Positions 3,196 to 40,733 of a stretch of DNA of 40,733 nucleotides are shown here, in pieces (the first letter of the stretch is position 1; the number at the start of each line of letters is the position of its first letter). The stretch covers positions 1-40,733 of IMG/VR virus record IMGVR_UViG_3300025113_000006; one strand, 5' to 3'. The stretch is from a virus. The notes beneath the pieces are model-generated. The model did not search any database and was not told the DNA's origin. It saw nothing but the letters and a program-made list of their open reading frames with translations. The position numbers and the translations under genes were made by a program.

Positions 3196-6100
3196 ATGAG
3201 TTCGACGTCGTTGAGGTCCTGGTCCCGCAGCCGGTCACGACCGTTGACGTCGCTCTGCCCGCCGCCATCACGACCATTGAGGTCGCCATCGGGCTTACCG
3301 GCCCGCCTGGTCCAGTTGGTCCACCAGGTGCTACAGGTCCCGCTGGTCCCATCGGTCCAGCAGGTGTCCAAGGTCCAGTTGGGCCGATAGGGCCACAGGG
3401 CATCCAAGGAACACCAGGGCCACGAGGTGAGACGGGACCACAAGGGCCGCAGGGCCTCACTGGCCAACCTGGGCCACAGGGCCCGATCGGTGAGAGCGGG
3501 CCACAGGGTATCCAGGGGCTGCCTGGCCCACAGGGCAGCGTTGGACCGACCGGACCAGCCGGCGAACAAGGCGAGGTCGGGCCAGCCGGTCCGCAGGGAC
3601 CACAGGGCAACCAGGGCTTCACGGGCCTCACCGGCCCGCAGGGGCCAAAGGGCGACACCGGCTCGGCAGGGCCACAGGGCATCCAAGGACCACCTGGCAT
3701 CCAAGGCCCAGTTGGCGACACCGGCGCTCAAGGGCCGCAGGGCAACACGGGGCCACCTGGGCCGCAGGGCGTCCAGGGCATCCAAGGCCCAGTTGGCTCG
3801 CAGTGGTTCAACGGGACCGTCGTCCCATCGAGCGGCACCGGCACGGACGGCGACTTCTACCTCCACGATCCAACGGGCGACGTCTACCAGAAGGTGGCCG
3901 GCGAGTGGGTGTTCAGCTCCAACATGCTCGGGCCACCAGGTGCTACCGGCCCTGCGGGAGTCGCTGGACCTCAGGGGCCACAGGGCAGCCAAGGCGTCGC
4001 TGGGCCTGAAGGACCAGCTGGCAGCACGGGACCAGCGGGTATCCAAGGCGTGCCTGGTCCGGTTGGGCCAGAAGGACCACAGGGCCCCATCGGTGGCCTC
4101 GGCCCTGCTGGCCCAATCGGACCAGCGGGTGACCCTGGTCCAACTGGACCTGAGGGGCCACAGGGAGATGTAGGGCCACCTGGACCACAGGGCCCTGAGG
4201 GGCCACAGGGAGATGTAGGGCCACCTGGACCACAGGGCGAGCAGGGCTTCACCGGTCCGGCAGGTGTGTCCGGCGACCCAGGGCCTGCCGGACCGCAGGG
4301 CATCCAAGGGGTACCAGGTGCCACCGGCCCAGCCGGACCGCAGGGCATCCAAGGTGATGAAGGGCAGCAGGGCATCCAAGGTGAGGTTGGACCGCAGGGC
4401 GTCCAAGGCCCCGTTGGCCCAGGCGTGGCTGCCGGTGGAGCCGTCGGGCAGGTGCTCGCGAAGGCGACGGCCACCGACTACGCCACCGACTGGTTCTCGC
4501 TGCCGTATCCAGGTATCGGTGGTGTCCGCGTCCACACGTCCAACCCAATCACGCTCTCAGGGCCGGCGACCATCGACGGCGTCGCCCTGGCGACGGGCAA
4601 CCGCGTCCTTGTCAAGAACCAGGCGGTCCTCGCTGAGAACGGCATCTACGTGGTCGACGTCGCCGGTCCGTGGACCCGCTCAGCCGACCCGCTGAACACG
4701 CCCGGTCAGATGGTCGCGGTCAGCGAGGGCACCGATGGCTCCGCCACGGTCTGGCGCTACGACGGCCCGGTGCTCAACAGCTGGACGAGGTCAGGCGACC
4801 GCGTCAGCCTCACACCGGCAACTGGCACGACAGGGCTCTCAACGACGCTGTTGACAGCGGGGCTGGCTCCACCGACCGGTGCGCTCGCCACTCGCTTCAA
4901 CGGGCAGGGCAACCAGGACCTGCTGCTCAAGGTAACCGGCCTCCTGAACATCGCCTCAGGTGGCACCGGTGGGATCACCGCCGTTGAGGCTCGCACCAAC
5001 CTCCTGCCAAGTCAGGTAGGTCAGTCAGGCAAGGTCCTGGCAACCAACGGCACCGACGTCCTGTGGCAGACAGGTGGCACCGGAGGTGGGGCCTCCGCTC
5101 TTGACGACCTCACCGATGTAACGATCACCACTCCAGTTCAGGGCGAGCTGCTCACCTTTACCTCGGGAAGCTGGCGCAACCTACCACCGGCCTCGCTGTC
5201 CTTGGATGGACTCAGCGACGTCGTCGCCCCTACCCCCAGCACCGATGACGCGTTGATCTTCAACGGGACCAACTGGACCTCCCAACCCATCAACCTCACG
5301 CTTGACAAGCTAGGAGATGTAACTATCACCGCTCCAGTGGGCGGGGATACCCTGGTCTACACCGGCAGCCAGTGGGTCGCTGACGCACCGTTGCCGTTCT
5401 TCATCGCGACTGCCCAGGACGTCACGCTGGTCAACCCACTGGGTGGCGAGCTCCTGATGTACAACGGCACGCGCTGGGTCAACAGCCCACCGCTGCCAGT
5501 TTGGCTTGACGCCCTGACCGACGTCCAGCTTACCAGCCCACAGGGGGGAGAGCTCCTTCGCTTCAACGGCAGCTACTGGTTCAACGACGTTGAGCTGCCG
5601 GTCTGGCTTGACAAGCTGACCGACGTCGTGATCACCGCTCCCGCAGGCGGTGACATCCTTACCTTCACCGGGACGGAGTGGCGCAACTACCCACGTGGAA
5701 CCGAGGCACTGTCCAGCCTCAGCGACGTCGACCTGACCTCGCCAAGCAACGGGCAGGCGCTCGTCTTCGACGGAGCGGTGTGGCGAAACTACATTCTCAG
5801 CCTTGACATCCTTGGCGATGTCGTGCTGACAGGCATCCCAGCAGCCGGGCAGGTGCTCACCTGCATCGGTGGTGGTACCTGGACCAACGCGACCCCAACT
5901 CCGGGTCCACTCAACGCCCTCATCGACGTGGACACCGCCGGAGCTCAGGACGGCGACCTCCTCACCTACCAAGGCGGCAGCTGGATACCACAGGCCGCGC
6001 AGCAGGCACCGGCCTACCAGGCAGTTGTCGCCACCGCGGGCCAGCAGGTCATCGACACCGCCGTCGCCACCGTGGCCAACGCCCAAGGCCGCGCCTACCT

Positions 6101-18104: not shown

Positions 18105-18328
18105 AGCCCATCGCAAAGCACCCACAGCACCAAGATAAACTTAACAGGTGGTTGGCGGACGAGTACCCGAAAGGGGTGCCAACCAACATCCAGGTGCGCA
18201 CCGACGACGGTGGCACAATCTGGGTTGCTGATGCGTATGGCGCTTGGCCGGTCGTAGATGGGCGCATCTACTATGGGATGCTGGTATATCGCAGCGATGG
18301 TACGTGCAGTCTTCTGCGCGACTGCTGA
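18101..18328 (+). CDS. small hypothetical protein, 75 aa
   Basis: It starts with GTG overlapping the previous TGA and ends in TGATG, overlapping the ATG of the primase-helicase. The N-terminus is basic (KPIAKHPQHQDKLNRWLADE) and the rest is a series of strands (IQVRTDDGGTIWVADAYGAW). No family is recognised. Tight coupling on both sides suggests that it works with the replication protein. Confidence 0.55.
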   Translation: MKPIAKHPQHQDKLNRWLADEYPKGVPTNIQVRTDDGGTIWVADAYGAWPVVDGRIYYGMLVYRSDGTCSLLRDC

Positions 18329-21201
18329 TGCGCCTCTCCTTCATCAACGACTTCTATGACCGGGAGCCCAAGCTCTTGGACGTCGGCATCGACGTGATCG
18401 TCGACGACCTGACCAGCTTCAAGCGCAAGCACACCACCTACGGCACCTACCACCGCTGGAAGCGCCAGCACGATGAGCTTCGTGAGCAGGTGCGGCTGGA
18501 GCGGCTCGCTGGGAACGTCGACACGGCGAAGGAGCTGGCGAAGGAGCGGGACCGGGTCTTCAGGCTGATCGAGGACGTAAAGAACGGGCACGCCTTTCTT
18601 CCTTACGTCTACCACACGCCCAAGCGAGGCAAGGACAACATCGCGCTTCAGACGCTGGTGGTGCTGGACATCGACAGCGGGTTGACAATTGACCAGGCCG
18701 ACGCGGTCCTCGATGGCTACGACCGCGTTACCTACTCCTCCATCTCATCTCGACCCGGTTCCCCTCGCTTCCGGGTGGTCCTCTTTCCCGAGCGGGAGCT
18801 GACCGTCCCTGAGGCGGTTGAGCTCACGCGCCGCATCGACGCGAGGTTTCCCTCGCTCAACCCACCGGAGAAGGAGACGCAGGCCATCGACCCGGTCGGT
18901 GTCAAGGGGGAGCAGCTCTACTTCCTGCCTGGCTGGTTGGCAGAGCACCCTGAGGAGCCGGTGGCGGTCCACCACCTCGGTGCGCGGGTCCCCGTGGACG
19001 CCTTTCCGCTGCGCGAGGCAGATCAGGCACGCCTCACGGTTCGGGCCCAAGGGCGGGTCGCCGACCGCGCGAAGCGCGTGGAGCAGCAGCTGCAGGCGGA
19101 GCGCAGCGGGCTCGCTGGTCCGGGGCTGGTTCGTGAGAAGCGGATGGAGAAGGGGGTGCTGGTCGAGAAGGTATACCTCAGCCTCGATCACGAGCTAGAG
19201 ACCGACCGCGGCTACATCCGCTTCGGCGACGTCAGCGGCCACATCGGCGGCATCGTCTGCCCCGCACACGTCGACGCCCACGGTTCCGAGTTCGCCGACG
19301 TCAACAAGGCAGGCACGCCCTACCTCCACTGTCACTCGTGTGGTACGCTGTGGCCGCCCCCTGAGAAGGGGCTCAAGCTCAAGCGGAAGGTTCCCACCAC
19401 GCAGCCGCTGCTTGACGCGGACGACGACCCCATTGAGCAGCGCGAGGAGGTAGTTCTCCCCGAGCCGCGAGAGTTCTCTCTGCCGCTCCCTTGGGAGAAG
19501 CGGGTCCCCATCATCACCACCTTTCTCACCACCGCGATCCACCACGCGGTGAGCCTCCTCCTTACCCCTGAGGGCTGGGGCAAGAGCACCGTCCTGACGC
19601 GAGGCGTCCTCGCGCTTGGGCGCTCGGTGCTCTTCTGCTGCCCAAGCCACGTGCAGGCCGCGGCCAAGGTGACCGACTTCGCGGACCATGGAGCCGCGCA
19701 CGCGTGGTCGCTTGGCGGGCTGCTCAAGCAGCGACACGGCATCGCGGCCGTCATGACGAGCCGGGACGGTGATGACGACGACGCGTACACCGACATCCCG
19801 GCGACCATCGAGAAGGTGGCCGACGCGCTGCAGCTGCCGCTTGACGAGGCAGACGCCCTCGTTCAAGGGCTCCGAGAGGAGGCCGCCGAGAGCTGCCGCT
19901 CCACCACCCCCGTCCTCGTCACCAGCTTTCACACGGGCTCACGGCTTGCCTCGCGCCCTGGCTTCAACCGCGTGGTCATCGTGGACGACCCCAACCGCGA
20001 CACCCTGCGCGGGGCAACCGTTGCCCTTGAGAACGGGACCTGGTTGGTCAAGCACCAGCGAGCACCTGAGGACCTGCTCTTCGCGAAGGTGCCACCGCAC
20101 CTCCCGCTGATCTTCACGACGACCGAGGTCGGCGTTGAGGAGCGGTTGAGGCACCTCTACGGGCACTCGCTGTTCGTCCACGAGGTGCAGGAGCTCCTTG
20201 AGACCGAGGACCACCTCTTTCTAGCCGACACGCTTCTCGCCCACTCCAAGACCCGCCCGGCCCTGGCGGGCATGGCCAAGGTGATCGCGGTGGAGGAGAA
20301 GGCCGACCTGCTCTTCATCGCCGACGCGACCCAGAGCCGACACAACCACGCCAACACCAAGGGGCGCAACGACCTGACGGGTGACACGGTGACCGCCATC
20401 TCCTGGCCACCCGCGGTGGCCGCCGCCACCCTTGCCGCGGACATCGGCCTGGACCCCAACGATGACGGCGTGGTCGAGGAGCTACGCACGCTGATCGCGG
20501 TCGACCAGTTCAACCAGACCGTGGGCCGGTCCATGGGCTACCGCCACCAGCCTGGCGTCCACACCCTGGTCCTGTGCGCCCCGCGGCTGCGAAACGCGCT
20601 GCTCAACCGCGGGCGCTACCGCTGTACCCAGGTGGACCGACTCGTGAAGAGACGGTCACCAATCAAGGGGCTGCCCGTGGTCCGGTCGACGCTCGTCTAC
20701 GAGCATTCCCTGCCGGACTGGCTCTTCGCCTGGCCAAGGCACCTGCTGGTCTGGGAGACGTGGGTCAAGGAGTTCCCTGGAGTGGATGGGAAGAAGCGGC
20801 TGCTCGAGGTGGTGACGGCCGCGGCCCAGGACCCGACCGTGGACCGTCACCGGAACTGGGAGCTGCTCCAGCGGTACGTGGCCGACGGCCCGCTGCGCTG
20901 GAAGGAGGTTGCCGAGCACCTGGACGGCGCTTCCGACGACCGGCGCACCTACCGGGTCAGGTTTCACGAGCTGGTGGCGAAGGAGGAGAAGATCTACACC
21001 GGTGCTGTGGCCCGTGCGCGCAGGAAGGAGCTAAACGCGAAGCTGAACGCGAAGCTGAACGCGGTGACGAACAAGGGACGACTGACAGGCATGGCTCACT
21101 TTGCCAAGCCGGGGGTGAAAACGAGGAAAAAAGCGGTGCCGGGCAGCGTAAAGGCCGTCCAGCTGGCGCTGGACGGGTGGTTGTTGGTCAGAGAAGGTTG
21201 A
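18328..21201 (+). CDS. primase-helicase replication protein, 957 aa
   Basis: The ATG in TGATG (18328) is chosen; a longer frame from 18244 overlaps the 75-residue gene. The N-terminal third resembles the archaeo-eukaryotic primase fold: VVLDIDSG carries the paired aspartates (Asp114, Asp116) and YSSISSRPGSPRFRVVLF the second motif and Arg147/Arg149, although the usual histidine of motif II is serine here. Cys311, His314, His318, Cys335 and Cys338 form a zinc-finger-like cluster (CPAH...HCHSCG). A helicase follows, with motif I PEGWGKST (Lys419) and motif II IVDDP (Asp553, Asp554). It should prime and unwind phage DNA. The C-terminal KLNAKLNA repeat is basic. No DNA polymerase is present, so host replisome use is implied. 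Confidence 0.75.
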   Translation: MRLSFINDFYDREPKLLDVGIDVIVDDLTSFKRKHTTYGTYHRWKRQHDELREQVRLERLAGNVDTAKELAKERDRVFRLIEDVKNGHAFLPYVYHTPKRGKDNIALQTLVVLDIDSGLTIDQADAVLDGYDRVTYSSISSRPGSPRFRVVLFPERELTVPEAVELTRRIDARFPSLNPPEKETQAIDPVGVKGEQLYFLPGWLAEHPEEPVAVHHLGARVPVDAFPLREADQARLTVRAQGRVADRAKRVEQQLQAERSGLAGPGLVREKRMEKGVLVEKVYLSLDHELETDRGYIRFGDVSGHIGGIVCPAHVDAHGSEFADVNKAGTPYLHCHSCGTLWPPPEKGLKLKRKVPTTQPLLDADDDPIEQREEVVLPEPREFSLPLPWEKRVPIITTFLTTAIHHAVSLLLTPEGWGKSTVLTRGVLALGRSVLFCCPSHVQAAAKVTDFADHGAAHAWSLGGLLKQRHGIAAVMTSRDGDDDDAYTDIPATIEKVADALQLPLDEADALVQGLREEAAESCRSTTPVLVTSFHTGSRLASRPGFNRVVIVDDPNRDTLRGATVALENGTWLVKHQRAPEDLLFAKVPPHLPLIFTTTEVGVEERLRHLYGHSLFVHEVQELLETEDHLFLADTLLAHSKTRPALAGMAKVIAVEEKADLLFIADATQSRHNHANTKGRNDLTGDTVTAISWPPAVAAATLAADIGLDPNDDGVVEELRTLIAVDQFNQTVGRSMGYRHQPGVHTLVLCAPRLRNALLNRGRYRCTQVDRLVKRRSPIKGLPVVRSTLVYEHSLPDWLFAWPRHLLVWETWVKEFPGVDGKKRLLEVVTAAAQDPTVDRHRNWELLQRYVADGPLRWKEVAEHLDGASDDRRTYRVRFHELVAKEEKIYTGAVARARRKELNAKLNAKLNAVTNKGRLTGMAHFAKPGVKTRKKAVPGSVKAVQLALDGWLLVREG

Positions 21202-21204
21202 TGT

Positions 21205-21357
21205 GGAGGCCGTGGCCGTCAAAAGCTACCCCCGGAATGGCACGCCCCTTATAAAGGGGACTCGTTGTTAGTTTTGCCCTTCCGGGGGTAACTTCCCGAC
21301 CCCCTCCTCAGACCCGCTTTATTACCGTTTTGTTACAGTCGGCCGGCCACGGCCTCC
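21205..21357. repeat. three-tier nested palindrome after the primase-helicase (candidate origin or terminator)
   Basis: Three perfect inverted repeats are nested. The outer arms are GGAGGCCGTGGCC (21205-21217) and GGCCACGGCCTCC (21345-21357). The middle arms are TACCCCCGGAA (21227-21237) and TTCCGGGGGTA (21280-21290). The inner hairpin is CCCCTT-ATA-AAGGGG (21245-21259). An A/T-rich stretch (TTTATTACCGTTTTGTTACA, 21318-21337) lies between the middle and outer right arms. This falls in the 363-base gap 21202-21564, which otherwise holds one CTAAATA motif and a leader. The layout suits a replication origin or a strong terminator closing the early operon. Confidence 0.75.
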
Positions 21358-21372
21358 AGCTCGACCTGCCCG

Positions 21373-21379
21373 CTAAATA
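21373..21379 (+). promoter_or_regulatory. late-promoter-like motif CTAAATA
   Basis: GCTAAATACAC lies just after the nested palindrome. The next good gene start (21565) is about 185 bases further on, so a transcript from here would have a long untranslated leader. Confidence 0.5.
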
Positions 21380-21564: not shown

Positions 21565-21858
21565 ATGCTCATCTTCGACCTGCACGCCGTGCCGTCCAAC
21601 GGCGGCCTTGCCTGCCAGCTCTACACCTCGAAGGCCACCTTCAAGGACGGCCTGCGAGGCCACCTGACGAACCGAGCACCGATCGAGGCCAACGCCCTGC
21701 TGGCCCGGCTTGACGAGGTCTGGCGCGACCAACCGCAGCACATCTGCACCTACCACATCTACGGCGACGACATCAGGTACGGCCTCACCGAGTGCGGCGA
21801 CCTCCGCAAGAAGGGGCGCACCCAGGAGCTCCTGGAGCGCCTTCTCACGAAAAGGTGA
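21565..21858 (+). CDS. hypothetical protein, 97 aa
   Basis: ATG 21565 follows AGGGAG by a good spacing; the frame is open further upstream (to a GTG at 21439) but without a ribosome site. The product MLIFDLHAVPSNGGLACQLY contains WRDQPQHICTYHIYGDD with several histidines, and a basic helical C-terminus ending ERLLTKR. Unrecognised. It stands alone between the nested palindrome and the direct repeats before the packaging genes, so a role in replication or packaging is possible but unproved. Confidence 0.55.
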   Translation: MLIFDLHAVPSNGGLACQLYTSKATFKDGLRGHLTNRAPIEANALLARLDEVWRDQPQHICTYHIYGDDIRYGLTECGDLRKKGRTQELLERLLTKR

Positions 21859-21925
21859 CTGGGTAGCCTTACCTGGCGCGTAAAAGTACGAGACCACCAG
21901 GGTTTCAGAAAAAGACTAACCCTGA

Positions 21926-22023
21926 CAACAACTTAGGGTGATGTTTGGGTAGAGGCACTAGATGTAGCGTCTGGTCGTGTCGTGGAAAAAGTGTATACGG
22001 GGCAACAACTTAGGGTGATGTTT
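21926..22023 (+). repeat. pair of 21-bp direct repeats before the terminase genes (candidate pac/cos or ori element)
   Basis: CAACAACTTAGGGTGATGTTT occurs at 21926-21946 and again, without a mismatch, at 22003-22023. The 225-base gap 21859-22083 contains no convincing gene, only these repeats, an ACCCT/AGGGT arm pair around the first copy, and a CTAAATA motif at its right end. Terminase small subunits bind repeated sites close to their own gene, which fits the location. Confidence 0.75.
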
Positions 22024-22083: not shown

Positions 22084-22254
22084 ATGGCCAAGCGAAAAAA
22101 ACCTACCCCACCGGACAGCCTCCGTGCCCTGATCAACCGGCTGCGCGCGAAGCTGGGCATGGAACCGCTGCCCCAACCTGACGAGCCACCGCCCACCACG
22201 GTAAATAGACCTCCACCGAAACAAAGGACCCGCAAGGGCACACCTCATGCTTGA
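22084..22254 (+). CDS. small basic proline-rich protein, 56 aa
   Basis: The product MAKRKKPTPPDSLRALINRL continues to a proline- and basic-rich tail and overlaps the next start by eight bases. No clear ribosome site precedes the ATG. It could be a small DNA-binding accessory of packaging, but I do not recognise it. A second A/T-rich motif, GTAAATA (22201-22207), is embedded near its end. Confidence 0.45.
   Translation: MAKRKKPTPPDSLRALINRLRAKLGMEPLPQPDEPPPTTVNRPPPKQRTRKGTPHA
22201..22207 (+). promoter_or_regulatory. late-promoter-like motif variant GTAAATA
   Basis: GTAAATAGACCTC resembles the CTAAATAGACCTT at 34801 apart from the first base, and lies 39 bases before the small-terminase ATG (22247). 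Confidence 0.4.
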
Positions 22255-22759
22255 CCTACCTCCGCTGCCTGAGCGACCACACGGCACCTACCACAAGGAC
22301 AGCCCCGAGTGGCATGAGTACGTTCGTCGGCTCGGTGCGTACTACAACCCAACGAACCGCGCGACCGCGGGCTTTCTAGGCATTCTCTCGGCCACCCTTG
22401 ACCAGCACCCCTTGACAATATCTGCCCTGGCTGCAGGTCGAGCGCTTTTCTTCGCCCGGGTGACGCAGGAGCTGCTCGGTTTCGCGTACTGCGACACGGA
22501 CTCCATCGAGGACCCCGCTGAGCGGAGGCATATGTCAAGCCTGAAGCAGGACACGCTCAAGCACTTCGAGAAGATCCAAGAGAAGCGCGAGGGCCTGGCC
22601 TCCATCCGCACCGAGAACGAGGCAACGCGCGACGCGATCCGCTCGCTGACGGACGCCGACGGCGTCGCCGGCCTGCTCATCTCGCTGACCAAGGCGAAGC
22701 GCGACCAGGCCACTGGCGCCACCACCGGCCCACCAGAGGTGCGCAAGCTGAGTGGCTGA
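22247..22759 (+). CDS. terminase small subunit (putative)
   Basis: The 170-residue, mostly helical, acidic/basic protein sits immediately before the large terminase and overlaps it by eight bases, the usual place for the DNA-recognition subunit that forms a ring on the pac or cos site. The N-terminus (HEYVRRLGAYYNPTNRATAG) and the following helices could form the DNA-binding part, and residues about 95-125 (HFEKIQEKREGLASIRTENE) a coiled coil for oligomerisation. No helix-turn-helix is certain. Assignment is mainly by position and size. Confidence 0.65.
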   Translation: MLDLPPLPERPHGTYHKDSPEWHEYVRRLGAYYNPTNRATAGFLGILSATLDQHPLTISALAAGRALFFARVTQELLGFAYCDTDSIEDPAERRHMSSLKQDTLKHFEKIQEKREGLASIRTENEATRDAIRSLTDADGVAGLLISLTKAKRDQATGATTGPPEVRKLSG

Positions 22760-24032
22760 GCTTCAGCTGCTGCCCGCGCAGCTTGAGTTCCTACAGGACG
22801 ACTCCACCTTTCACCTGGCGCTCGTAGGTGGCATGGGCTCAGGGAAGACGCGGGCCGGTGCCTTGAAGGCCGTTGACCTCGCCTTGAAGAACCCGGGGCA
22901 CCTGGGGCTGATCGCCTCAACGGACGCGTCCACCGCCCGCGACACCATCGTCCTGGCCGTCCAGGAGGTGCTGGAGCAGCTGTCCATTCCCTACCACTAC
23001 AACAGGTCGAGCCTGCGCTTCGAGCTGCAGCTTCCGCACCGGCGTCCAAGCACCATCAAGACGGTCACCTACGGCCAGCCGCTGGTCGGCTTCAACGCGG
23101 CCTTCGCCATCGCCGACGAGCTGGACGTGCTGCCGGCCACTGCGGCCGCCGAGGCCCACGGTGCCCTTGCCCTGCGGGTCCGCGTCGGCGCCGTCAACCA
23201 GGTCGCCGTCACGACGACGCCGGAGGGCTTTCGCTACTGCTGGCGCTTCTTCGACGACGAGCCGACGAAGGACCCGTCGAAGGCGGTCAACCGGCGCCTC
23301 ATTCGAGCCACGACGCTGGACAACCCGCACCTGCCCGATCGCTACATCCAGAACATCTTCGAGACGCGGACCCCCGAGCAGGTACGGGCCTACGCCTTCG
23401 GCTACTTCTGCAACTTCACGACGGGCACGGTCTACCGCTACTTCAACCGGGCCACCTGCTCCACCACGGCCACGGCGGCCGACTTCACCGACCGGCCCCT
23501 GCTGCTCGGCATCGACTTCAACGTGGACGCGATGTCGTGCGTCGTGGCCGTCATCGACCAAGGGCGGCTCCTGGTGGTGGATGAGTTCGTCTCCTTCAAG
23601 GAGCGACCGACGGTCCGAGACACCCGCGACCTCATCTCACAGGTGGTGGCCCGCTACGGTGACCGGACGATCATCGCCTGCCCCGACGCGTCAGGTGACC
23701 GCCGTGACTCCGCCGGCTGGAACACCAACCTGTCCCAGCTTCGGTCAGCGGGCTTCCAGCTGCGCGTCGGGGCCGCCAACCCACGGGTCGTGGACCGCGT
23801 GGCCTCAGTGAACTCTCTCTTTGAGAGCAGCCGAGGTGAGCGCCGCCTGCTCATCAACGTGGACCGGTGCCCAGGGCTCGTGCGCTGCCTCGAGCAGCAG
23901 ACCTACACGGACAAGGGCGAACCCGAGAAAGGCACCGGCCTTGATGGCCCAACGGACGCCATCGGCTACCTCGTCTGGGCGACCTTTCCACTGCGAAACC
24001 GGCTTGAAGCGCAGCACCGGTTGGTGACCTGA
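22752..24032 (+). CDS. terL: terminase large subunit
   Basis: The 426-residue motor starts with GTG. The ATPase half has Walker A GGMGSGKT (residues 26-33, Lys32) and Walker B with the acidic pair in AFAIADELD (Asp122, Glu123). The RNase-H-like nuclease half has Asp255 in LLGIDFN, Asp312 in CPDASGD and Asp402 in DGPTDAIGY, the three metal-binding acids. It cuts concatemeric DNA and pumps it into the procapsid through the portal. All residues expected for activity are present. The gene ends 36 bases before the portal gene, with a CTAAATA motif between. Confidence 0.95.
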   Translation: MAELQLLPAQLEFLQDDSTFHLALVGGMGSGKTRAGALKAVDLALKNPGHLGLIASTDASTARDTIVLAVQEVLEQLSIPYHYNRSSLRFELQLPHRRPSTIKTVTYGQPLVGFNAAFAIADELDVLPATAAAEAHGALALRVRVGAVNQVAVTTTPEGFRYCWRFFDDEPTKDPSKAVNRRLIRATTLDNPHLPDRYIQNIFETRTPEQVRAYAFGYFCNFTTGTVYRYFNRATCSTTATAADFTDRPLLLGIDFNVDAMSCVVAVIDQGRLLVVDEFVSFKERPTVRDTRDLISQVVARYGDRTIIACPDASGDRRDSAGWNTNLSQLRSAGFQLRVGAANPRVVDRVASVNSLFESSRGERRLLINVDRCPGLVRCLEQQTYTDKGEPEKGTGLDGPTDAIGYLVWATFPLRNRLEAQHRLVT

Positions 24033-24068: not shown

Positions 24069-25388
24069 ATGCTTGACCCCACGAAGACCAGCGCCAAGTT
24101 CGCCGTCCCTAGCTCCAAGTGGCTGCTGGTGGACGCGCTCTACGGCGGAACCACCACGATGCGGGCAGCTCGAGAGGCCTACCTGCCCAAGAACCCCAAG
24201 GAGCACGAGGCGGACTACAACGCGCGGGTCAACCGCTCGACGCTCTACAACGCCTACCGCAAGACGATAACGCAGGCGGTGTCACGGACCTTTGGTGCCG
24301 ACATCGAGCTTGCTGGGTATCCAGGTGAGGTGCTCCTGTTCGCCGAGGACGTGGACGCCCAGGACCGCTCGCTGACCGAGTTCGCCAAGGAGAGCTTCAC
24401 CGACGCGCTTCACCGTGGTGTCTCGTACTTTCTAGTTGACCTACCGTTCCGCGAGGAGCCGGTGGTCACGCTGGCCGACGCCGACCGCCCGTACTGGGTG
24501 CCTATCAAGGCCACGCAGGTGCTCGCGGCCTACTCGGCGATGGACGGTGGATCGGAGCGGCTGACGCACTTCCGCTTCAGGGAGTACGCGCTTGACCTGT
24601 CACCTGACGGGCTGACGGAGACGACCGTGGAGCAGGTGCGCGTCTTCACACAGCCATCAAGCACGGACCCAGTCAGCTTCACCGTCTACCGCCGGGTCAA
24701 CGCCGCGGCCACCACGCTGGCCCCAATGACCGGTGGAAACCAGGCAGGAACGGGCTGGGTCGTCGCCGCCGAGGGCGTCATTCCCGGGATGCCGCAGATA
24801 CCCGTGGTCCCCATCTACACCAACCGCGTCGGCTTCTACATAGGGACACCGCCGCTGATGGACCTAGCGGAGCTCAACGTCGCCCATTGGCAGTCCAGCT
24901 CCGAGCAGTCCAACGTGCTGCACGTGGCGCGAGTTCCGTTTCTTCACATCAAGGGCTACGACGCGGGCATCGACCCCGTTACCGGCAAGCAGCGGGAGCA
25001 GGAGATCTCCATCCACTCCGTCCTGACAACGGGACCTGAAGGTGACGCCAAGTGGGTCGAGACCAATGGCAAAGCGCTCAGCGCCGGCTTCCAGCACATG
25101 GCCGACCTCGAGACCAAGATGGACGAGTACGGCGTCACGCTCACCGCGTCCAGGTCCGGGCCAACCACCGCCACTGAGGTCGCCGTCAACACCGCCAGCT
25201 CCTCATCGGTGCTCAAGGACTACGCGCTCGCGCTCGCCAAGGCGCTTGAGCAAGGTCTCGCGCTAACCGCCATCTACCTTGGCCACGGACCCGTCAGCGG
25301 GTCCGTGGCCATCGACACCACCTTCGCCGTGGACCTCCAGGCGCAGACCGAACCACCAGAACAGGTGGCCCCTTCTCAAGCCGCATAA
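24069..25388 (+). CDS. portal protein (DUF4055-like)
   Basis: The 439-residue protein follows terL and precedes scaffold and capsid genes. Its N-terminus has the portal-type Y...R..STLYNAYRKTITQAVSRTFG segment, and the middle has IPVVPIYTNRVGFYIGTPPLMDLAELNVAHWQSSSEQSN, a pattern I associate with DUF4055-type portals, followed by a long helical crown or stem. Twelve copies should form the channel through which DNA enters and leaves the head. The length is typical. There is no fused protease or MuF domain. Confidence 0.85.
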   Translation: MLDPTKTSAKFAVPSSKWLLVDALYGGTTTMRAAREAYLPKNPKEHEADYNARVNRSTLYNAYRKTITQAVSRTFGADIELAGYPGEVLLFAEDVDAQDRSLTEFAKESFTDALHRGVSYFLVDLPFREEPVVTLADADRPYWVPIKATQVLAAYSAMDGGSERLTHFRFREYALDLSPDGLTETTVEQVRVFTQPSSTDPVSFTVYRRVNAAATTLAPMTGGNQAGTGWVVAAEGVIPGMPQIPVVPIYTNRVGFYIGTPPLMDLAELNVAHWQSSSEQSNVLHVARVPFLHIKGYDAGIDPVTGKQREQEISIHSVLTTGPEGDAKWVETNGKALSAGFQHMADLETKMDEYGVTLTASRSGPTTATEVAVNTASSSSVLKDYALALAKALEQGLALTAIYLGHGPVSGSVAIDTTFAVDLQAQTEPPEQVAPSQAA

Positions 25389-38700: not shown

Positions 38701-40733
38701 TCAACGGGGCCTGGGAGCGCACGCTACCACCTGTCGCCGTGGCAGGGCTGTCCGCTACCTCGCTTGTCTTCCTGGTCGGCAGCACAGGCACTCCATCGCC
38801 GACCTCCATCACGCTGACAGCCACGCCGTCAGGCAGCATTGAGGACGAGATCGCGGTCTGGACAACGAGCCCGGTGGTCCCGCTCACAGGCACCGGCAAC
38901 ACGCGCGTCCTTACCTACGCGGCGATGGGCGCGTACGACTCCGTCCAGGTGACCGTGACCTTCAGCAACGGCGAGACCACCTTCGTTGACTACGCGACCA
39001 TCATCAAGGTCCGCGACGGCGTTGATGGTGAGTCGGGTGACGCCATCTCGATGCTGCTGACCAATGAGGCGCACCAGATACCGTGTGACCAGACGGGAGC
39101 ACCCATCTCGGGGGCCTTTGACAGCGCGGTCACGGGCATCCGCATCTACAAGGGCCTGGTGGATGACACCACCAACTGGACCTTTGGTAGGACCAACAGC
39201 AACGTGACCTCCCTGCCAGGTGGCACGTCCGTCGCCCCCACCGTGTCGATCACGGGCATCACCGCTGACGCAGGCTACGTGGACATCACGGGCACCCGCG
39301 CAGGTGGTGGCTACCCATCGCCGACCAAGCGCTTCTCCATCACGAAGTCCAAGCAGGGCGCCCAGGGCTCAGCCGGTGTGGCCGGCTCCCGCACCGCCGT
39401 GATGGACGTCTACCGCTGGGCCACGTCGAACCCGACCACCTTCCCAGTCGGTAACTCGACCTACACGTGGGCAACCGCGCAGTTCACCCCACCAAGCAAC
39501 CTGAACGGCTGGTCCCTGGTGCCACCAACCCCAGCTGACGGCGCGACGCTGTACGCCTGCCGTCAGGTCTACGTGGACGTCGGTGGGTCGGCGACCAGCG
39601 TCATCACCTGGACAGCAAGCACCTCAAGGATCATCTCAAAGGCCGGTTCAACGGGTGCCAACGGGCAGCGGGTGGGCGTCCTTGAGCTGTACCGCTGGTC
39701 GTCGGTAAAACCTAACACCTACCCATCGGGTGCCTCGACCTATACGTGGGCTAACGGCACCTTCACGCTGCCGGCCACGACCAACGGGTGGTCGCTGCTG
39801 CCTGGCACGGCCGTCATTGGGTATACACTGTGGGGCATCTCAACCACCGTGTCGGACAACCTCACGACACCTACCTCCAACGCGAACTGGGGGCCCACCA
39901 CACCCTACCCAGTCGGCTACGCGGGCACCAACGGCATCGACGGCAAGACGCTGAGGATTACATCTACCTCGCAGACCTTCAACGTCAGCTCCTCTGGTGC
40001 AGCCACTCCAGAGGGCATCAACTTCAACCTTCAGTCACAGAACCTGGCTGGAGAGGCCGCCTGGTATATCTACCCCGTTGTCCCGTTCACGGCGGCAGGA
40101 ACTACGGCGAGCCTGCTCTATTCGTCTCTAGGGAACAACAAGTCAGTCATCATCACGGCGCAGTGGGACGGGCTCACCGATACGATGACCATCCACAAGG
40201 TGTTTGACGGCAGCTCCGCCCTTACCGCCTACTTGACCAACGAGTCCCAGACCATCGCGGCCGACGCGGCCGGTGTCGCAGTCCCGGGCGCCTTCACCAA
40301 CGCCGGTGGCTCCTTCAAGGTCCTTCGCGGCTCAACTGACATCTCAACGGGCAACGGGGTCTTCTACTCCGTGGTTGGAGCACCGGTTGGCATCGCGGGC
40401 ACCATCCATTCCAGCAGCGGCATCTACACGATCACCGGCTGTAGCACCGACGTGGGCTCCATTACCTTCGAGGCGCTGGTCGATGGAGTCCAGCTGCGCA
40501 AGACGTACGCGCTGTCGAAGGCCAAGGCAGGCCCGACCGGGCAGACAGGCCCGACGGGGCCACAGGGCCCAGGTGGAACTGGACCGCAGGGGCCGCCAGG
40601 TGAGTCGGCCATCAACTCAGCGCAGATCTTCCTGTACGCCTGGGGCGTGGCTCAGCCGGGTAACCCAACGGCGTCCTCGATCTACACCTGGGCCAACGGG
40701 TCCCATAGCTCCTACTCAGGAGCTGGGCCTTGG
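35721..40733 (+). CDS. tail tip protein J-like, N-terminal part (3' open)
   Basis: 1671 codons are open to the window end. The start has the gpJ hallmark NNTLQSNATVRVLEVISEGP-IEGL, then the conserved YDLLANPRYGLGE...YCDQLVDDG...EPRFTFNYWL region. Fibronectin type III domains follow near residues 645-735 and 870-950, then Ig-like domains. From residue about 1220 come modules with the core YRW...P...P.G.STYTWA.G....NGWSL.P....G.TLW (39400, 39685, and a last copy cut by the window end), separated by short Gly-X-Y stretches such as GPTGQTGPTGPQGP. The reading frame at the end matches frame 1 at base 1. J determines host specificity. Confidence 0.9.
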   Translation, partial: MSDIEGAGGGKGKGGSQFYEENNTLQSNATVRVLEVISEGPIEGLVGGGKGIYLNNVPLMNEDGSRNFGGKTGFDSRVGLDDQPYMNGFSSAASELSINIQITKVTPVTYTVSSSDIDAVSLTISLPDGLYNNNTSNNRLEGSEVELYVERRLGTGVFSEVKRFKISGKTTSPYEEQHRVQRPPGTGTWSVRVYRSTDDNASATLRNATWLGRVTEIQEVKKTYPNTAYVGLTIDAKSVSSSSVPTRSYLADGLLVKVPANYDPINRTYTGTWNGTFKFAWTDNPVWVVYDLLANPRYGLGEWVTEDQIDKYGFYACSRYCDQLVDDGDGGQEPRFTFNYWLIARQDAARWIQDISATFNAKVVWVGGQARLIQDAPPASLGQPTTAKLITTSNVIDGLFTYRSSPQQDRLTAVNVTWNNPANFYQQEVVTLDKFTVKAGALQTKLVSATDVFGYTSEDVVAIGCTSEGQARRAGLWRLDTALFQTETVSFRQFLNGFDLGVGEVVKVFDEHYANGQQAGRLAAGSTTTVVKLDRQVDIAASSTLELRWTDGTVVSQPIDVGVTGIGLHDTVTLSTALPAAPAEDTDFIVTGVRAPRQFRIVKVALSEDSTVAVDAVYYDPAKYARIEGGVEVPPPVFTTPPGSQLGPPTGLVFKEVQVNEDNTIVRTLNVSWQRPLQGIVVAYVFKWSKDNGGWRTIESTAPNVELTNAVPGVYRVEVYAVGYNNILGERALGTYTISTAGGGATSLSPVTDLQVVGGGVQFKGRTLTVEWVNPTSNSLVTTATARDFRVDVLTTADALIRTVYVPIVAAGSKQLYTYDYDTNVTDGGVDGPRRSVKVRVRIRDAANNLTTPTIGTFSNPAPAALTNVQATPTNEGVKLSWSVPTDPDWGGVLVWRGQTTGFVITPDNLAYDVQGSYVQDYTSFGTLYFYRVAAYDAFAKPLDGVGLNVSAEIQEAGLPADGIPEVDVLPDPVGYTGPSIVYLTTDGQLYSYVNGAWERTLPPVAVAGLSATSLVFLVGSTGTPSPTSITLTATPSGSIEDEIAVWTTSPVVPLTGTGNTRVLTYAAMGAYDSVQVTVTFSNGETTFVDYATIIKVRDGVDGESGDAISMLLTNEAHQIPCDQTGAPISGAFDSAVTGIRIYKGLVDDTTNWTFGRTNSNVTSLPGGTSVAPTVSITGITADAGYVDITGTRAGGGYPSPTKRFSITKSKQGAQGSAGVAGSRTAVMDVYRWATSNPTTFPVGNSTYTWATAQFTPPSNLNGWSLVPPTPADGATLYACRQVYVDVGGSATSVITWTASTSRIISKAGSTGANGQRVGVLELYRWSSVKPNTYPSGASTYTWANGTFTLPATTNGWSLLPGTAVIGYTLWGISTTVSDNLTTPTSNANWGPTTPYPVGYAGTNGIDGKTLRITSTSQTFNVSSSGAATPEGINFNLQSQNLAGEAAWYIYPVVPFTAAGTTASLLYSSLGNNKSVIITAQWDGLTDTMTIHKVFDGSSALTAYLTNESQTIAADAAGVAVPGAFTNAGGSFKVLRGSTDISTGNGVFYSVVGAPVGIAGTIHSSSGIYTITGCSTDVGSITFEALVDGVQLRKTYALSKAKAGPTGQTGPTGPQGPGGTGPQGPPGESAINSAQIFLYAWGVAQPGNPTASSIYTWANGSHSSYSGAGPW

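Follow-up and report, generated by a model that had tools for sequence, protein, structure and literature searches.

A nested palindrome behind a phage primase-helicase gene as a putative replication origin

Main finding

Directly behind a primase-helicase gene, the virus record IMGVR_UViG_3300025113_000006 carries three concentric tiers of inverted repeats, and a 15-mer contained in the middle tier occurs once more in the 3' end of that gene. Inverted repeats stand at the same position in distantly related phages. We propose that the palindrome is the replication origin of this phage, a DNA element and not an RNA element, which would work together with the primase-helicase encoded before it. 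From the sequence comparisons given below, we put the probability of this reading at about 65%. The whole record of 40,733 bases was analysed and is called the window here; it has no terminal repeats. The coordinates of the features are collected in Table 1.

Table 1. Features of the palindrome and its neighbourhood (positions in the window)
Feature	Position	Strand	Description	Sequence
Primase-helicase ORF, presumed initiator	18244-21201	+	985 aa as longest ORF	
15-mer copy 1	21102-21116	+	within 3' end of primase-helicase gene	
Outer arm, left	21204-21218	+	15 bp perfect	TGGAGGCCGTGGCCG
Middle arm, left	21223-21242	+	20 nt at 90%; holds 15-mer copy 2	
15-mer copy 2	21228-21242	-	in left middle arm	
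Inner hairpin	21245-21259	+	6 bp, 3-nt loop	CCCCTT-ATA-AAGGGG
Middle arm, right	21275-21294	+	20 nt at 90%; holds 15-mer copy 3	
15-mer copy 3	21275-21289	+	in right middle arm	
Pyrimidine-rich then T-rich tract	21295-21338	+	presumed unwinding/start zone	TTCCCGACCCCCTCCTC...CGCTTTATTACCGTTTTGTTAC
Outer arm, right	21344-21358	+	15 bp perfect	CGGCCACGGCCTCCA
Promoter-like motif	21373-21379	+	just outside outer arm, before packaging/structural block	CTAAATA
Small ORF	21565-21858	+		
Possible small terminase subunit (TerS)	22247-22759	+	no family match	
Large terminase subunit (TerL)	22752-24032	+		
Portal	from 24069	+		

Structure of the palindrome

A preliminary description of this DNA had placed three concentric inverted repeats, with arms of 13, 11 and 6 bp, directly after the primase-helicase gene. 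The concentric arrangement was confirmed and is stronger than first described, and so was the position, since 3 nt separate the stop codon of the gene (21201) from the start of the left outer arm (21204). The outer arms are indeed perfect repeats, but of 15 bp instead of 13 bp. With mismatches they lengthen to 24 nt at 88% (21195-21218 and 21344-21367), and the lengthened left arm overlaps the final codons of the primase gene. The 11-bp perfect run of the middle tier (TACCCCCGGAA/TTCCGGGGGTA) was found again as part of longer, imperfect arms, and the 6-bp inner repeat was found as described.

Four inverted repeats in the window score at least 13. Two of them are the outer and middle tiers, which form the sole nested pair. 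When the whole window was shuffled 60 times with its dinucleotides preserved, no shuffle contained a nested pair and the mean number of repeats scoring at least 13 was 0.27; a chance origin of the palindrome was rejected on this count. Shuffling of the 237-nt intergenic stretch yielded even one repeat of that score in only 3 of 3000 trials. A tandem-repeat artefact was also considered and rejected as an account of the palindrome. The remaining two strong inverted repeats of the window are intragenic: one (4054-4125) lies within a collagen-like repeat of a tail fibre, and the other (25280-25311, 14 bp perfect) is at the 3' end of the portal gene.

The 15-mer TGCCNNNCCGGGGGT is a feature beyond those of the preliminary description. 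It has exactly three exact copies in the window, all of them inside 188 nt, while shuffles gave a mean of 0.03. Because the motif was defined from the two middle arms, the third copy alone, within the primase-helicase gene, counts as independent evidence. With three copies of this motif, the middle arms look like protein-binding motifs (iterons), beyond being the stems of a hairpin.

Folding, duplex stability and base composition

RNA folding of 21195-21370 gave -86.7 kcal/mol on the + strand (z = -6.8) and -93 kcal/mol on the - strand (z = -6.7). The fold that had been suspected from the arms is thus exceptional on each strand, and it is strong on both because the DNA is symmetric. In comparison with all GC-corrected 180-nt folds of the window, the palindrome is the best on the - strand (z = -3.8) and merely within the top 25 on the + strand.

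The A/T-rich patch reported between the arms exists on a local scale, where the 30-nt stretch from 21246 reaches the 99.7th percentile for low duplex stability. It does not extend far: the 60-nt stretch is at the 96.5th percentile, and the palindrome interval has a G+C content of 59%. The pyrimidine-rich tract that follows the middle tier includes a 40-nt stretch with 31 pyrimidines, which is in the top 0.05% of the window.

Cumulative GC skew had been suggested as a check on an origin at this place. The raw curve has no extremum at the palindrome. The detrended curve does reach its maximum at 21291, but this point coincides with a gene-block boundary, where the skew steps from -0.01 in the primase gene to about -0.09 in the late genes, and the sign of the extremum is the one usual for a terminus. 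The detrended maximum was not repeated in phages S-H1 and S-2L.

The primase-helicase and its neighbourhood

The primase-helicase gene and the palindrome are followed, all on the + strand, by a small ORF and by the genes of a possible TerS, TerL, portal, scaffold and major head protein. The primase-helicase matches PHROG DNA helicase (9e-8) and DNA primase (1e-6), and tblastn gave weak matches to VapE-type phage primases. Its N-terminus is an AEP-type primase domain. Further along the protein, we recognised by eye a zinc-finger-like motif, a Walker A motif (GWGKST) and a helicase motif VI-like sequence (DQFNQTVGRSMGYR). Searches with this protein gave no match in Pfam or among PDB sequences and no near relatives in IMG/VR, phage records or GTDB genomes, and single-sequence structure predictions of two parts of it were too poor to interpret (mean pLDDT 47 and 41).

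The palindrome itself had no match by DNA similarity in phage records or by exact patterns in IMG/VR, and the major head protein had no near relative in IMG/VR. The terminase is about 35-40% identical to those of the cyanosiphophages KBS-S-2A, S-H1 and MED4-184 and of many IMG/VR contigs. Loci of relatives were chosen by this terminase relationship and then scanned for inverted repeats.

Repeats behind the primase genes of related phages

In the relatives' loci, the strongest inverted repeats follow directly on a large primase(-helicase) gene, past its stop codon. Among the 23 loci with a recognisable primase 3' end, not all of them independent as several are near-identical, 13 (57%) have a repeat scoring at least 12 in the 400-nt stretch directly after the primase, compared with 0.27% of control 400-nt tiles. 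The post-primase repeat is the best of its locus in 12 of the 23. No such repeat was found in the loci of KBS-S-2A and MED4-184 (L006 and L008), which encode a lambda O-like initiator and an annotated replication initiation protein, respectively; the lack of the repeat in these two counts in favour of the origin reading. Type-A primases (see below) from distant phages outside the lineage, those of Stutzerimonas, Bordetella, Microcystis and Serratia, have no repeat behind the gene, and thus the rule is not general to the type-A family.

The primases of the relatives belong to three types without mutual BLASTP matches, namely Zn-ribbon/Toprim primases (type A), DUF5906/D5_N primases (type B) and Prim-Pol/PriCT_2/VapE primases (type C). 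All three are mutually unrelated; for B and C, a profile comparison was made as well. When the window's primase-helicase was compared with each of the three types, profile against profile, no homology was detected; judged from these comparisons, it is a fourth type that matches none of A, B and C.

From reading the sequences, the element in the relatives starts with at least two short iterons, continues with a core rich in pyrimidines and in A+T (for example TTTCCTAATCCCCCTCCCCCTCCCCCTCTTTATCCC) and ends with the iterons in inverted orientation. Close primases have iteron sequences in common, and these differ between primase subtypes. The gap between the element and the primase stop codon is constant, whereas the distance from the element to terL varies from about -0.7 to -3.4 kb. 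Moreover, type-B loci have their core turned round with respect to the gene, which is expected for a DNA element and not for an RNA or a terminator. In the isolates S-H1 (element at 17.7-17.9 kb) and S-LBS1, no inverted repeat of the genome ranks above the post-primase element. Phage S-2L, whose terminase is on the other strand at a distance of about 10 kb, has a weaker element behind its PrimPol. The elements of S-LBS1 (L100; 34240-34620) and of the 2-aminoadenine phage S-2L (L101; 23039-23310) are both unannotated, origin-like and iteron-containing, and both follow the Prim-Pol gene.

Since no sequence homologue of the window's palindrome was found, its kinship with these elements rests on position and layout. 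By eye, the inner hairpin resembles a CCCC(T)TATA motif to the left of the core in type-A relatives, and the pyrimidine tract (AACTTCCCGACCCCCTCCTC...CGCTTTATT) looks like the cores of type C (AACTTCCCTACG...CCTTTATT in locus L053). The second likeness is suggestive only, because an nhmmer profile of type-C cores ranked 21293-21335 third in the window at E=17, which is not significant.

A putative replication origin

The preliminary description had suggested an origin from the place of the palindrome next to a replication gene. This suggestion is now supported by inverted-repeat and iteron elements behind three unrelated types of primase, though not by GC skew. It is also backed by the isolates S-H1 and S-LBS1, weakly by S-2L, and by the place and layout reported for PICI/SaPI origins (PMC6092414). 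An element that keeps its place behind the initiator gene when the terminase is elsewhere, occurs with its core in either orientation and has inverted motifs resembling protein sites around a tract that looks prone to melting is best interpreted as an origin of replication.

The origins of PICI/SaPI elements are immediately 3' of the initiator gene, with two iteron sets around an AT-rich region (PMC6092414). Similarly, the palindrome is directly 3' of a fused primase-helicase gene and its inverted motifs flank a presumed melting-prone core, and the relatives show clear paired iteron sets. In contrast to the PICI/SaPI origins, the palindrome belongs to the phage's own replication module and not to a satellite, it lacks arrays and shows long nested arms and a 15-mer in three copies instead, and its presumed initiator cannot be recognised as a PICI type. 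SCC origins are also found immediately 3' of an initiator helicase gene and contain iterons, and the SCCmec helicase Cch2 binds repeats that follow closely on the gene encoding it and unwinds them (PMC7581432); the repeats of the window stand at the corresponding place. Binding of Cch2 needs direct repeats, whereas the hairpin-forming inverted repeats of that origin are dispensable for it (PMC7581432); in the window, inverted repeats are the dominant feature. The SCCmec primase prefers a purine start, mostly opposite template C (PMC7581432), and such purine-first priming would suit a C-rich core.

The elements of the cyanosiphophages (S-H1, S-LBS1, S-2L and the IMG/VR loci) share position, inverted symmetry and a pyrimidine/AT-rich core with the palindrome, and the terminases of S-H1 and the IMG/VR loci are related to that of the window. 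They differ from it in having many short iterons and primase-helicases of other families, and they have no detectable sequence homology to it. In the literature that we searched, which was incompletely covered, we came across no published account of origins of this kind in cyanosiphophages. For Streptococcus thermophilus phage Sfi21, Foley et al. (1998) reportedly described a non-coding segment that resembles an origin and is downstream of the primase gene.

If the palindrome is an origin, the primase-helicase would bind the inverted motifs to either side of the centre, and its C-terminal region would probably be the part that does so. The binding sites could be the copies of TGCCNNNCCGGGGGT, the outer GGCCGTGGCCG arms, or both. 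Melting may then follow at the unstable TTATAA loop and in the pyrimidine/T-rich tract, with the help of hairpin extrusion on supercoiled DNA, so that both bound complexes could load as helicases and the primase could begin on the exposed strand. Several points speak against an origin. Where the relatives have sets of 2-5 iterons, the arms of the window are long and single and one motif is present in three copies; the AT-rich zone of the palindrome is short; and the distant type-A primases outside the lineage have no such element after the gene. Furthermore, a stretch 0.6 kb downstream is less stable, contains a 39-nt direct repeat (21908-22023) and could be an origin or a packaging site in place of the palindrome.

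If the origin reading is true, origins in a large and little-studied phage group could be found from sequence by looking directly after the primase-helicase gene. The same layout with four unrelated initiators would also mean that initiator and origin were exchanged together, which the cultured phages S-H1 and S-LBS1 make testable. We can only tentatively suggest that the primase-helicase of this lineage and the origin behind it are a swappable replicator cassette, in which four unrelated enzymes each have their own motif and the window's version is of a cruciform type, with nested hairpins in place of iteron arrays.

Alternative explanations

The palindrome separates the replication gene from the CTAAATA motif that precedes the packaging genes, and it folds exceptionally well as RNA on both strands (z = -6.8 and -6.7), as would be expected of a transcription terminator or two-way insulator whose RNA hairpin stops transcription of the primase-helicase gene ahead of the late genes. 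The preliminary description had likewise allowed that it ends the early operon. This claim found no support: there is no T-run behind the outer or the middle stem on either strand, and the sole terminator-like match is the inner hairpin, a kind of match found three times in the window while 3.4 were expected from shuffles. A loop of 125 nt and concentric arms are atypical of terminators, the relatives keep inverted iterons and not one hairpin, and the type-B core is reversed. Therefore, we consider a terminator unlikely as the explanation of the palindrome. Terminator function is compatible with an origin, however, and an additional role of this kind is possible since the element stands between the replication gene and a promoter-like motif. 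The CTAAATA itself probably belongs to downstream transcription and not to the palindrome. The very strong predicted fold could also indicate a structured non-coding RNA or a cis-regulatory RNA. No Rfam family scored above its gathering score, with chance-level matches only, a tRNA search found nothing, and there is no sequence-conserved RNA in the relatives. As the folding of both strands is explained by the symmetry of the DNA and the type-B orientation is reversed, an RNA element is highly improbable.

A packaging site (cos or pac) recognised by the terminase would fit the location of the palindrome upstream of the possible TerS, TerL and portal genes. Across the relatives, however, it is the distance to the primase stop codon that is constant and the distance to terL that varies, and in S-2L the terminase is far off on the opposite strand. 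The 39-nt direct repeat, closer to the possible TerS, is a better candidate for such a site. Since the position of the element is not linked to the terminase genes, the cos/pac reading was rejected as very unlikely, if a shade less so than an RNA. The constant distance to the primase, the variable distance to the terminase and the reversed core together favour an initiator-linked DNA element over a terminator, an RNA or a packaging site. The outer arms (24 nt at 88%) are inverted repeats of a terminal type that enclose about 125 nt, and they recall the remnant of a MITE-like small mobile element. There is one copy in the record, phage records contain no match, and by eye no target-site duplication is present outside the arms; a mobile element was rejected for these reasons. 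Iteron arrays occupy the same place in the relatives, and of all the explanations weighed here this one has the least credence.

Other features of the window

The sequence TAAATA, mostly as CTAAATA, occurs ten times on the + strand (2784, 17844, 21373, 22072, 22202, 24036, 26174, 29001, 30512 and 34801) and once on the - strand (15216), where 0.3-0.4 sites were expected (0.38 for the + strand). Most of the sites are 20-50 nt upstream of a gene start and past the previous stop codon. The motif looks like a phage-specific promoter resembling the T4 late promoter (TATAAATA), in a siphophage of 40 kb. The same pattern was not seen in S-H1.

The two copies of the 39-nt direct repeat (82%) are at 21908-21946 and 21985-22023 and have the identical stretch CAACAACTTAGGGTGATGTTT in common. 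They lie in one of the least stable stretches of the window, upstream of the possible small terminase gene; the repeat may be a packaging site, a site for a regulator or a second origin. Between 11130 and 17790, GC and AT skew are reversed, and this region contains minus-strand ORFs, opposite to the structural genes and nearly all without family matches. By eye, the two ends (1-300 and 39700-40733) look like collagen-like tail-fibre sequence, so that the record probably represents a circularly permuted genome that was broken in a repetitive gene.
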